In this document: positions 3,605-59,236 of the stretch, one piece after another
Layout: each line of letters starts with the position of its first letter
How positions within the stretch are numbered: the stretch's first letter is position 1
Notes under the pieces: generated by a model
What the model saw: the letters and a program-made list of their open reading frames with translations, nothing else
What the model was told of the DNA's origin: nothing
Database searches by the model: none
Translations under genes and position numbers: made by a program
Assembly: GCA_016124255.1 (NCBI GenBank)
Contig: WGOB01000005.1
Span: forward strand, 1 to 64,000
Direction of reading: 5' to 3'
DNA length: 64,000 bases
Source: Alphaproteobacteria bacterium
GTDB taxonomy: Bacteria; Pseudomonadota; Alphaproteobacteria; Caulobacterales; Aquidulcibacteraceae

Positions 3605-4900
3605 TTAGAGCAGCATCGCCATCGGGTCTTCGATGAAGCCGCGGAAGGCCTTCAGGAAGCTTGCGCCGATGGCGCCGTCGACGACGCGGTGATCGCAGGT
3701 GAGCGTCACGCTCATCATCGTGGCGATGGCGAGGGCGTCGTTCTTCACGATCGGCCTCTTTTCACCGGCGCCCACGCTCATGATGCAGCCGTGCGGGGCG
3801 TTGAGGATCGAGGCGAAGCTCTTGATCCCCATCATCCCCATGTTGGAGATCGAGAACGTGCCGCCCTGGTATTCCTCCGGCTTGAGCTTCCGGTTGCGCG
3901 CGCGCTCGGCGAGGTCGGCCATCTCGGCGGAGATTTGCGCGAGGCCCTTCGTCTCCGCCTTGCGGATGATCGGTGTGATGAGGCCGTTGTCGATTGCGAC
4001 GGCGACGGCGACGTCGGCGTGGTGGTGCATGGCGATGCCGTCCGGCGTGTAGCTGGCGTTGGCGCGCGGCTCGCGCACGAGCGCGAGCGCCGCGGCCTTA
4101 ATCACCATGTCGTTGACGGAGATTTTCACACCCTGGTCGGCGAAGCGTTTGTTGATGTCGCCGCGTGCCTTCAGCAGCGTGTCGATCTCCAGATCGATCG
4201 TCAGCGGGAAGTGCGGGACGTCGCGGAAGCTGTCCGTCATCCGGCGCGCGATGGTCTTGCGCATGAGATCGAGCGGCACGAGGTCGTAGCTGCCTTCGGG
4301 AACGCCGAGCTGCTCCAGCGTTTGCGGGGGCGCCGCGGGCGGGGAAATCGTCAGCGCGCGGCTCGCTTCCTGCGCCGGGCGCGCCGCGCCGCGGGCGCCT
4401 TCGATGTCGCGCTTGACGATGCGGCCGTTGGGGCCCGAGCCCTGCAAGCCGCTCAAGTCTATCCCAAGCTGCTCGGCCATGCGCTTCGCGAGCGGCGACG
4501 CCGCGACGCGTCCCCCTCCCCCTTGCGGGGAGGGGGTAGGGGGTGGGGGGCGAAGAGTCTGAGCGACGGGGAGCGGCGCCGGCGGCACGGGCGGGCTTTC
4601 TTTTGCACGCCCCCCACCCCCTGCCCCCTCCCCGCGAGGGGGAGGGGAAGACGCCTCACCTTCGGCCGCAAGCCGCGCGATGGGGGTGTTGACCTTCACG
4701 CCTTCGCTGCCGGCGGCGACGAGAATTTCCGCGAGCACGCCTTCGTCGACGGCTTCGACCTCCATCGTCGCCTTGTCGGTTTCGATTTCGGCGATGACTT
4801 GGCCAGGCTCGATTCTGTCGCCCACCTTCACAAGCCACTTGGCAAGATTGCCCTCCTCCATCGTGGGCGAGAGTGCGGGCATGGTGATGTCGATGCTCAT
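3605..4900 (-). CDS. pdhC: Pyruvate dehydrogenase E2, dihydrolipoamide acetyltransferase
   Basis: 431 residues. It transfers the acetyl group from lipoamide to CoA and forms the complex core. Domains: one lipoyl domain at residues 1-76 with ETDKATMEV (lipoyl Lys43); a Pro/Gly-rich linker of about 50 residues; an E1/E3-binding domain at about 132-165 ([13 protein letters not shown]...GPNGRI); and the catalytic domain ending in [11 protein letters not shown] with His404 and Asp408. The linker is odd: its DNA is a pair of inverted GC hairpins (4512-4647) translated as [12 protein letters not shown] and [13 protein letters not shown]. Its lipoyl domain is almost identical to that fused to PdhB. 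Confidence 0.95.
4512..4647. repeat. Paired inverted GC-hairpin element inside pdhC
   Basis: Two copies of one hairpin unit in inverted orientation. The left copy (4512-4550) has arms CCCCCTCCCC and GGGGAGGGGG around CTTGC, followed by a TAGGGGGTGGGGG tail. The right copy (4610-4647) is its reverse complement, with arms CCCCTCCCC and GGGGAGGGG around GCGAG. About 60 bases separate them. The whole unit is in frame and supplies the linker between the lipoyl and E3-binding domains. Related pairs lie at 5821-5925 and in pdhB at 6955-7093. Confidence 0.8.
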
Positions 4901-5820: not shown

Positions 5821-5925
5821 CTCCTCCCCCTGAAAGGGGGAGGCAGGGAGGGGGTCTGCACACGTTGGCGCGCAATTTGTTCGCGTTGCGCCGACCCCCT
5901 CTCGCTCCCCCTTTCAGGGGGAGTA
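5821..5925. repeat. Paired inverted GC-hairpin element between pdhB and the GFA gene
   Basis: The left hairpin (5823-5843) has arms CCTCCCCCT and AGGGGGAGG around GAA, followed by CAGGGAGGGGGT. The right hairpin (5905-5923) has arms CTCCCCCT and AGGGGGAG around TTC, preceded by the inverse tail. About 37 unique bases lie between the tails. The layout matches the pairs inside pdhC and pdhB but the loop sequence differs. It fills most of the gap between the pdhB stop and the GFA start and might act as an RNA-stabilising or terminating structure. Confidence 0.8.
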
Positions 5926-56992: not shown

Positions 56993-58291
56993 ATGACGAC
57001 CCAGACCCGACCCTCCGCCATCGCCCATGACGGTTTCTTCGAGACCGGTCTTGCGCAGGCCGATCCGGAGATCTTCGCGGCCATCGAGAACGAGCAGGCG
57101 CGCCAGGGCCGCCAGATCGAATTGATCGCGTCGGAGAACATCGTCTCCCGCGCGGTGCTTGAGGCGCAGGGCTCGGTTCTGACCAACAAGTACGCCGAGG
57201 GCTATCCCGGGCGGCGCTATTATGGCGGCTGCGAGTTCGTGGACGATGTCGAGCGGCTGGCCATCGAGCGCGCGCGGCGGCTCTTCGATTGCGCGTTCGC
57301 CAACGTCCAGCCCCATTCTGGGGCCAGCGCCAACCAGGCGGTGTTCTTCGCGCTGCTGCAGCCCGGCGACGCCTTCCTGGGCATGGATCTGGCGGCGGGC
57401 GGCCATCTCACCCACGGCGCGCCGGTCAACATCTCGGGCAAATGGTTCAAGCCGATCTCCTACGGCGTCCGCCGCGACGATCACCTGATCGACATGGACG
57501 AGGTGGCTGAGATCGCGCGGCGCGAACGTCCCAAGCTCATCCTCGCCGGCGCCAGCGCGTATTCCCGCGTCATCGATTTCCGCCGCTTCCGCGAGATCGC
57601 CGACGAGATCGGCGCGATCTTCATGGTCGACATGGCCCATTACGCGGGCCTCGTGGCCGCCGGCGTCTATCCATCGCCGCTGCCCCACGCCCACGTGGTG
57701 ACCACCACCACCCACAAGACGCTGCGCGGCCCCCGCGGCGGCATGATCCTCTCCAACGACGAGGAGATCGGGAAGAAGATCAATTCGGCGGTCTTCCCCG
57801 GCCTGCAGGGCGGCCCGCTGATGCACGTCATCGCCGCCAAGGCCGTGAGCTTCGCTGAAGCGCTTCAGCCGGCGTTCAAGCTCTACGCCAAGCGCGTGGT
57901 GGAGAACGCCAAGGCCCTGGCCGATCGCCTGATCGATAATGGTCTCGCCGTCGTCTCCGGCGGCACCGACAGCCATGTCATGCTGGTGGACCTGCGCCCG
58001 AAGAACGTCACCGGCAAAGCGGCGGAAGCGACGCTCGAACGGGCGCTCATCACCGCGAACAAGAACGCCATCCCCTTCGATCCGGCCAAGCCGATGGTGA
58101 CGAGCGGCCTGCGCGTCGGCTCGCCCGCCTGCACCACGCGCGGCTTCGGCCCGGCCGAATTCCGCCAGGTCGCCGATCTCATGTGCGAGGTGCTCGACGC
58201 CTACGCCAAGTCGAACGGCGACAATAGCGCGACCGAAGCGGCGGTGGCTGCGAAGGTCGAAGCGCTGACCGGCCGGTTTCCGATCTACTGA
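56993..58291 (+). CDS. glyA: Serine hydroxymethyltransferase
   Basis: 432 residues from the ATG at 56993 ([19 protein letters not shown]). It interconverts serine and glycine with tetrahydrofolate and PLP and so supplies glycine to the 5-aminolevulinate synthase encoded 1 kb away. Seen: [56 protein letters not shown] and the PLP Lys in [17 protein letters not shown]. Complete. A repeat block begins two bases after its stop. Confidence 0.97.
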
Positions 58292-58293
58292 GT

Positions 58294-58323
58294 GAGTAGC
58301 GAATAGCGAGTAGCGAATAGGGG
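58294..58323. repeat. Left flanking repeat of the four-helix-bundle gene
   Basis: Two direct copies of a 14-base unit (GAGTAGCGAATAGC) in tandem, ending in AGGGG, immediately after the glyA stop. The same unit occurs in opposite orientation at 58704-58740, so the small gene between them is framed by inverted repeats. Confidence 0.8.
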
Positions 58324-58329
58324 CGCAGC

Positions 58330-58703
58330 TTGAGCACGATCAGCTCCTATCGCGACCTAAAAGTTTGGCAGGCGGCCATTTCCCTCGCCAAGGGCGTTTA
58401 CAGTCTAACCGGGCAGTTCCCCGTTTCAGAATTGTATGGATTGACCACACAGGCGAGACGGGCCGCGGTTTCGATCGCCGCCAATATCGCCGAGGGCCAG
58501 GTCGGGACACCACAGGCGCATTCGTGCAATTCCTAAGGATCGCGCAAGGCTCCCTCAAGGAATTGGAGACTCACCTTATTCTGGCCCAAGAACTCGACTT
58601 TGCGGCGAGCGAAGCTATCGGTGAATTGCTCTCGCGCTGTGATGAACTGGCAAAAATGACGCGAGCTCTTGTGCGGTCACTTCAGGACAAGGCCCATGAC
58701 TGA
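58330..58703 (+). pseudogene. Four-helix-bundle (S23 / IVP-like) protein, frameshifted
   Basis: The sequence reads SSYRDLKVWQAAISLAKGVY and then ARRAAVSIAANIAEGQ in one frame, and GRDTTGAFVQFLRIAQGSLKE...ELETHLILAQEL in the next. In intact relatives these join as NIAEGQGR.TT, so one G is missing near 58500 and the frame breaks after about 57 residues. The start is a TTG (58330). The family forms four-helix pentamers and is found both inside 23S rRNA intervening sequences and as free genes; the Avd protein of diversity-generating retroelements is related. The gene is bracketed by inverted repeats. A sequencing slip is an alternative to real decay. Confidence 0.82.
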
Positions 58704-58740
58704 CCCTATTCGCTATTCGCTACTCCCTATTCGCTAGTCC
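58704..58740. repeat. Right flanking repeat of the four-helix-bundle gene
   Basis: CCCTATTCGCTATTCGC followed by TACTCCCTATTCGCTAGTCC: the reverse orientation of the GAGTAGCGAATAGC unit at 58294-58323, with one extra partial copy. It ends directly before the nrdR start codon, so it also forms the leader of nrdR. Confidence 0.8.
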
Positions 58741-58741
58741 C

Positions 58742-59236
58742 ATGCGTTGCCCCTTCTGCCAGCACGAAGACACCCAGGTGAAGGACAGCCGCCCCACCGA
58801 AGACGGCGCGGCGATCCGCCGGCGCCGCCAGTGCGACAAGTGCGGCGCACGGTTCACCACCTTCGAGCGCGTGCAATTGCGCGAGCTGATCGTGGTCAAG
58901 AAGTCCGGCCGCCGTGCGCCGTTCGACCGCGAGAAGCTGACCCGTTCGGTCATGATCGCGCTGCGCAAGCGCCCGATCGACGGCGAGCAGGTCGATCAAT
59001 TGGTTTCCGGCATCGTCCGCCGCCTGGAGAGCGCCGGGGAAGCCGAGATTCCATCCCGCGAGATCGGGGAGATGGTGATGGAGGCGTTAGCCAATCTCGA
59101 TCCGGTCGCGTATGTCCGCTACGCCTCCGTCTACCGCGATTTCCGGGACGCTAACGACTTCGCCGATATTCTCGACGACCCTCAGCTCGGCGGCGCGCAG
59201 CCCGCCGGCGGGGCCGAACCGAAGAAACGGACCTGA
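58742..59236 (+). CDS. nrdR: Transcriptional repressor NrdR
   Basis: 164 residues. An N-terminal zinc ribbon ([17 protein letters not shown] and [13 protein letters not shown]) is followed by an ATP-cone (about 49-139; [20 protein letters not shown]). It represses ribonucleotide reductase genes when dATP is high, by binding NrdR boxes. No such box is evident in this window. It precedes the rib genes with five bases to ribD, the order glyA-nrdR-ribD being usual in alphaproteobacteria. Confidence 0.96.

Follow-up and report, generated by a model that had tools for sequence, protein, structure and literature searches.

A decaying S23/IVP gene between inverted heptamer arrays, a probable copy of a small mobile intervening sequence of operons

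In a 64-kb window (the whole stretch of DNA that was analysed), the gap between glyA and nrdR holds what is probably a copy of a small, mobile, operon-dwelling intervening sequence (IVS), with arms that would form an RNA stem open to cutting by RNase III. The copy is decaying, its S23 reading frame being no longer intact in the assembled sequence. The architecture of an S23/IVP gene set between inverted arms recurs across phyla, and gene and arms travel together, since related S23 genes at unrelated sites keep nearly the same 7-nt word in their arms.

The element spans positions 58291-58739, about 450 bp. Its left arm (58291-58322, forward strand; lag-7 segment 58291-58320) is built of tandem 7-nt units, GAGTAGC/GAATAGC, whose G-rich strand reads inward, and starts at the stop codon of the upstream glyA (serine hydroxymethyltransferase; 56993-58291, forward strand), which marks the left edge of the insertion. 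The right arm (58704-58739, reverse strand) carries these units inverted and stops 2 bases short of the start codon of the downstream nrdR (58742-59236, forward strand), the right edge. The arms are up to 93% complementary to each other, and in a predicted RNA fold of 58280-58752 they pair around the gene, with a modest z of -2.27 and 1 of 100 shuffles equally stable. As in an IVS, an S23 ORF is thus framed by inverted repeats able to pair, and the inverted arrays around the gene that an earlier note on this DNA had described are indeed there. Chance repetition was ruled out by shuffles and by the uniqueness of the unit: a 14-mer with at most 2 mismatches occurs 6 times in the window, always within the two arms (0.25 expected, and none of 100 shuffles had as many), and a search for GARTAGCGARTAGC with at most 1 mismatch through the whole genome (3.34 Mb) found 6 places, none of them outside these arms.

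The gene (58330-58703, forward strand) belongs to the S23/IVP family (four helix bundle, PF05635), as that note had recognised, and is read in two frames, 58330-58536 and 58365-58703. In profile searches these matched PF05635 separately, at 65.7 and 49 bits against a cut-off of 33.8, one frame covering profile positions 1-53 and the other 48-104; both also exceeded the TIGR02436 cut-off, and S23 relatives cover the whole PF05635 profile. Because the two frames overlap there, one lost base can be placed within about 58491-58509 of the assembled sequence, which agrees with the frameshift suggested near 58500, and the TTG at 58330, likewise suggested as the start, is consistent with the relatives. 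S23 is the sole gene inside the element, where no known transposase gene was found. Profile searches of S23 proteins gave no match to nuclease families, no known catalytic motif was seen in S23 elements, and PADLOC returned no defence-system match for two S23 relatives. Among the relatives, 2gsc and 2rld have solved structures. On contig C17 the genome has a second S23 copy (L001), likewise broken, whose arms repeat every 8 nt; this copy adjoins a leucyl-aminopeptidase-like gene.

S23 loci were gathered at four taxonomic ranks around this genome (its genus, family, class and phylum) as well as in a named scan covering 84,980 species genomes; one search among relatives confirmed 566, of which the best 80 were kept. 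Among the matches listed, S23 record titles name Proteobacteria, Cyanobacteria, Planctomycetota, Chloroflexota, Bacteroidetes, Acidobacteria and Nitrospirae, and further titles among them name Treponema, Gemmatimonadaceae, Fibrobacteres, Kaiserbacteria, Poribacteria and a Methanophagales archaeon. The survey took in the 125 loci, out of 128 non-identical ones, whose flanks were long enough; three with too little flank and two duplicates were dropped, and flank windows were placed by hand for a few broken or special copies (L001, L005, L030-L033, L043). In these loci, which are best-scoring matches rather than a random sample and include orthologous sites, so that counts are not independent, autocorrelation peaked at lag 7 in 86 of 125 left flanks and 93 of 125 right flanks, at least one side doing so in 107 loci and both in 72. 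The mean score was 14-15 at lag 7 and 3-5 at other lags except 14, and in six loci both sides had period 8. Left and right arms matched in inverted orientation (score at least 12) in 105 of the 125 loci, compared with 64 of 1000 pairings of a left arm with a right arm from another locus and 3 of 500 shuffles; a clear arm match was absent in 20. A further set from the phylum search gave matched arms in 20 of 28 and a 7-nt array on either side in 24 of 28, and Uma2 control genes from S23-bearing genomes (19 usable of 30, 11 having been dropped for want of an ORF call) gave 0 of 19 and 3 of 19. In most arms the G-rich strand is the one read towards the gene (108 of 123 on the left, 105 of 124 on the right). 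With neighbouring ORFs and strands called by a crude ORF rule, the S23 gene shared the strand of two co-directional neighbours 69 times and ran against them 16 times; a further 51 copies had neighbours on opposite strands and 15 lacked one neighbour. A recurrent S23 site (L380, L394, L402, L404, L406, L407, L110, L117, L095) has an 8-nt, GGGGAGTA-like unit, apparently the 7-nt word plus one extra G.

The word itself is private to the locus and drifts with the gene. Among 151 distinct copies, each above 60 bits with most of the profile, both arrays could be called in 109, and in 82 of these the left and right words differ by 0-1 bases in inverted orientation; the same closeness is found in 121 of 2160 left-right pairs from other loci and in 7 of 109 in direct orientation. 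Words are on average 3.2-3.5 apart where protein identity is below 50% (random 3.17) and 1.2-1.5 apart where it exceeds 70%. Where S23 pairs of at least 70% protein identity have callable heptamers and no flank homology, no more than one base separates the words in 11 of 12, compared with 5% among random pairs; this count comes from a strict list, a looser different-site count (9 of 10) having been set aside as it included flank-homologous pairs. What defines the arms is their period and their complementarity to each other; their sequence is not fixed. Through replication slippage and copying from one paired arm to the other, the word could drift while both arms stay matched. The target site is not supported as the origin of the heptamer: same-site pairs are not clearly closer than different-site pairs (mean distance 2.70 vs 2.66 at 55-60% identity, 1.71 vs 2.42 at 60-65%), and unrelated sites share the word when their S23 genes are close.

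The glyA-nrdR gap preserves some of this history. With gap lengths anchored on the glyA C-terminal motif, glyA was found upstream of nrdR in 28 of 30 family loci, and the 28 gaps comprise three with S23 and arms (the window, G041 and G033), one remnant with the S23 end and both arms, nine gene-less inverted hairpins, one case of widely spaced arms, one unrelated insert and 13 short gaps of 8-44 bp. Within the genus of the window, G003 is empty, with a 23-bp gap that holds neither gene nor repeats, and in G001 and G002 the gap is taken by hairpins that lack the gene and use other words. At this site a 16-nt loop is identical in five genomes (G030, G036, G043, G048, G050), and therefore marks one ancestral hairpin; the loop has one further match, with a mismatch, elsewhere in G043. 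Their arms are CAGTGGG/CAATAGG-like in three genomes and GATTAGG-like in two. In four of the five (the G048 gap equals that of G043), own arms score 12-16 and arms across the two groups 6-12, while some between-genome pairs with GATTAGG-like words outscore own arms, as expected for one shared word. The loop is fixed and the arms differ by lineage yet stay paired; both arms have therefore changed together. In the glyA-nrdR gap of G047 (L165), matched arms stand far apart around a sequence resembling an ordinary empty gap, as if no loop had arrived with them.

At another site, in one genus, 30 loci were fetched (61 genomes matched), of which 19 are empty, with gaps of 26-32 bp, and 11 filled, with gaps of 443-573 bp. 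All 11 filled copies have the gene and both arms, with CAGTAGG units in varying numbers per side, and the insertion lies between a stop codon and a ribosome-binding site. In shared-site clusters, the nearest relative of 22 of 51 copies sits at a different site. The earlier proposal that gene and repeats moved as one unit is supported by these empty and filled sites, by the heptamer kept in unlinked pairs, by the uniqueness of the unit in its genome and by the empty gap in G003. No target-site duplication was seen in the empty/filled comparisons, in which the gaps have diverged. Nor was any near-identical recent transposition seen among the S23 copies, the identical pair in genome G585 lying in two rRNA operons. 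The pair L229/L230, 91% identical, was considered as a transposition and rejected as a segmental duplication, since the two share 2.6 kb of flank.

The nearest likeness is to the 23S rRNA IVS of Coxiella, in which, according to the part of the source consulted, tandem GACAGAT heptamers precede an S23 ORF, a 28-bp inverted-repeat stem is cleaved by RNase III (the 5' site lying at the start of the first heptamer), the S23 protein is held by the authors to be probably not made, and where rRNA intervening sequences come from is still described as unclear (PMC4990558). An extension of this account to other S23 genes was not found in that part of the paper. In the S23 elements as in this IVS, a stem of about 30 bp made of inverted repeats has an S23 ORF in its loop, heptamers stand in tandem and the size is about 430-450 nt, and by analogy operon-borne copies would also be cut by RNase III in the stem. 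Unlike it, the window element lies in an operon, between glyA and nrdR, rather than inside a 23S rRNA gene, and has a different heptamer word; most surveyed copies likewise appear to lie outside rRNA (four loci were checked by Rfam). Three of these four (L129, L131, L400) are inside 23S rRNA genes and L071 is not, and all three bear heptamer arms. Because these elements lie inside 23S rRNA genes, the classical rRNA IVS is one case of a wider element class. In G585, S23 elements with identical proteins (L400, L401) sit within the 23S rRNA gene of two rRNA operons, Rfam having been run on L400.

On transcription of the host operon or rRNA, then, pairing of the arms would give a stem of about 30 bp that holds the gene in its loop, and RNase III, following the rRNA precedent, would cut the stem, so that the insert is removed from, or split off, the host RNA. 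A transcript cut in the arms would thus make insertion between operon genes tolerable, with little harm expected between a stop codon and the next ribosome-binding site. It may also be, though we put this more cautiously, that the S23 protein binds the periodic arms, as RNA or single-stranded DNA, in the service of movement or upkeep, and that gene-less hairpins are non-autonomous derivatives.

The foremost rival, itself rather unlikely, is a DNA transposon with the arms as terminal inverted repeats, in which S23 or an unlinked enzyme cuts and joins DNA and the RNA hairpin is incidental. Inverted ends, gene-less derivatives, a scattered distribution, arms that move with the gene and the fixed strand polarity of the arms would all suit such an element. 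Yet the terminal inverted repeats of classical IS and MITE elements have a fixed sequence, whereas here the arm sequence varies freely between loci and only the period is conserved, and we know of no transposon ends of that kind; period-locked, sequence-free terminal repeats with both arms changing in step would differ from the transposon ends known to us. The lack of a nuclease family match also tells against a transposon, as may, between gaps that have diverged, the absence of an observed target duplication, and the strand bias towards the host operon and the presence in rRNA fit a constraint at the RNA level. REPINs are short inverted hairpins in many copies, with a rarer gene-bearing form that has RAYT transposases. 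S23 elements resemble them in combining many short inverted hairpins with a rarer gene-bearing form, but have no tyrosine transposase, and their arms conserve a period of 7 instead of a sequence. Correia elements have no gene inside, a fixed end sequence and a range of one genus, unlike the S23 elements, which carry a gene. In Neisseria these elements (also nemis) are intergenic inverted-repeat mini-elements whose RNA can be bound or cut by RNase III, as described in the part of PMC2649163 consulted. The window also has a strong hairpin of G-runs at 4513-4647 (CCCCTCCCCC...GGGGGTAGGGGGTGGGGGG), with 7-nt-like spacing, which looks REP-type, and a shorter palindrome pair at 5824-5923.

We also doubt that S23 is a domesticated host gene, acting as a regulator or RNA-binding protein, with the arms as its binding site or as a device that processes or insulates transcripts, and with movement rare and incidental. 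The median dN/dS of S23 is 0.08 over 55 non-independent pairs from 18 genes (pairs of equal length and 80-99% DNA identity; one vertically held site supplied 15 of the 18 genes, some of them fetched twice), and the protein therefore does something at that site, though the window copy is broken. Some sites are moreover retained from genus to genus (nuoC-nuoD, for one, is filled in 10 loci whose S23 identities are 47-68%), and S23 is co-oriented with operons, all of which would suit a host function. Against it stand the empty sites in many close relatives, the breakage of both copies in this genome and the relatives that have arms without the gene.

It is quite improbable that S23, as a relative of Avd, and a host reverse transcriptase form a retroelement-like unit that copies the excised RNA into DNA. 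Homology between PF05635 and the Avd protein of diversity-generating retroelements is stated in the part of PMC10053308 consulted. The sequence match is nonetheless weak, two intact S23 relatives scoring 24-25 bits with Pfam bAvd (cut-off 40) and 21-29 bits with NCBIfam Avd (cut-off 80), which leaves them outside Avd. Unlike Avd retroelements, the S23 gene has no reverse transcriptase, template repeat or variable gene beside it, and the one RVT_1 match of this genome is on another contig, C96. RVT_1 was found in 7 of 16 S23-bearing and 6 of 16 S23-free genomes, 9 of the 16 S23 genomes having none; with no such association, a reverse transcriptase in the same genome is therefore not needed for upkeep.

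Heptamer arrays without the gene at many sites, which the earlier note had named as a sign against its reading, do occur in S23-rich genomes such as the planctomycete G359 (15 S23 matches; 31 lag-7 arrays and 12 inverted pairs in 400 kb), while in a 368-kb sample of the window's own genome no lag-7 array was found away from the gene. One array was found in 314 kb of 20 S23-free alphaproteobacteria, 3 in 340 kb of 20 genomes with few copies, and 26 in 256 kb of 20 multi-copy genomes, the last confined to 4 of 20 sources with many contigs short; the multi-copy set is uneven, and partly a matter of lineage. The gene-less arrays look like derivatives rather than unrelated repeats. In the parts of the sources consulted, intergenic heptamer repeats are reported for Xanthomonas and Nostoc, those of Xanthomonas being rich in G and forming inverted convergent pairs, 70 in one genome and 75 in another (PMC4692102), and TAACTGA repeats for Beggiatoaceae (PMC4679880). 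Like the window arms, these are 7-nt tandem units, mostly intergenic as far as those parts go; unlike them, with no S23 gene linked there, the arrays described here end S23 elements or their gene-less derivatives. A literature link between S23 genes and intergenic heptamer repeats was not found within a coverage that excluded most subscription papers and bioRxiv. That S23 genes merely happen to lie near heptamer repeats, reported in those parts as abundant in intergenic DNA without an S23 link, is hardly credible given matched arms at none of the 19 control genes, arms that match within and not between loci, and the 368 kb of this genome free of lag-7 arrays away from the gene.

A wider and distinctly more tentative possibility, which we would not yet favour, is that S23 elements form a so far unrecognised, phylum-wide, RNA-level selfish class, in which a 7-nt period and self-complementarity are recognised, whatever the word, by an S23 pentamer (a pentamer being the form of the solved S23 relative); the abundant intergenic heptamers of prokaryotes would then for the most part be descendants that lack the gene, and rRNA IVSs those copies that had inserted into rRNA. 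If S23 elements were the source of the heptamers, the puzzling 7-letter repeats of many genomes might be explained, and if the whole held true, the role of S23/IVP, the origin of rRNA IVSs and the heptamer repeats would become one testable question. In two Nostoc species, S23 copies at the same site (L226 and L239) have inverted arms and also, at the stop codon of S23, an array of direct GGGAATA repeats, with about ten units in one species and one or two in the other.
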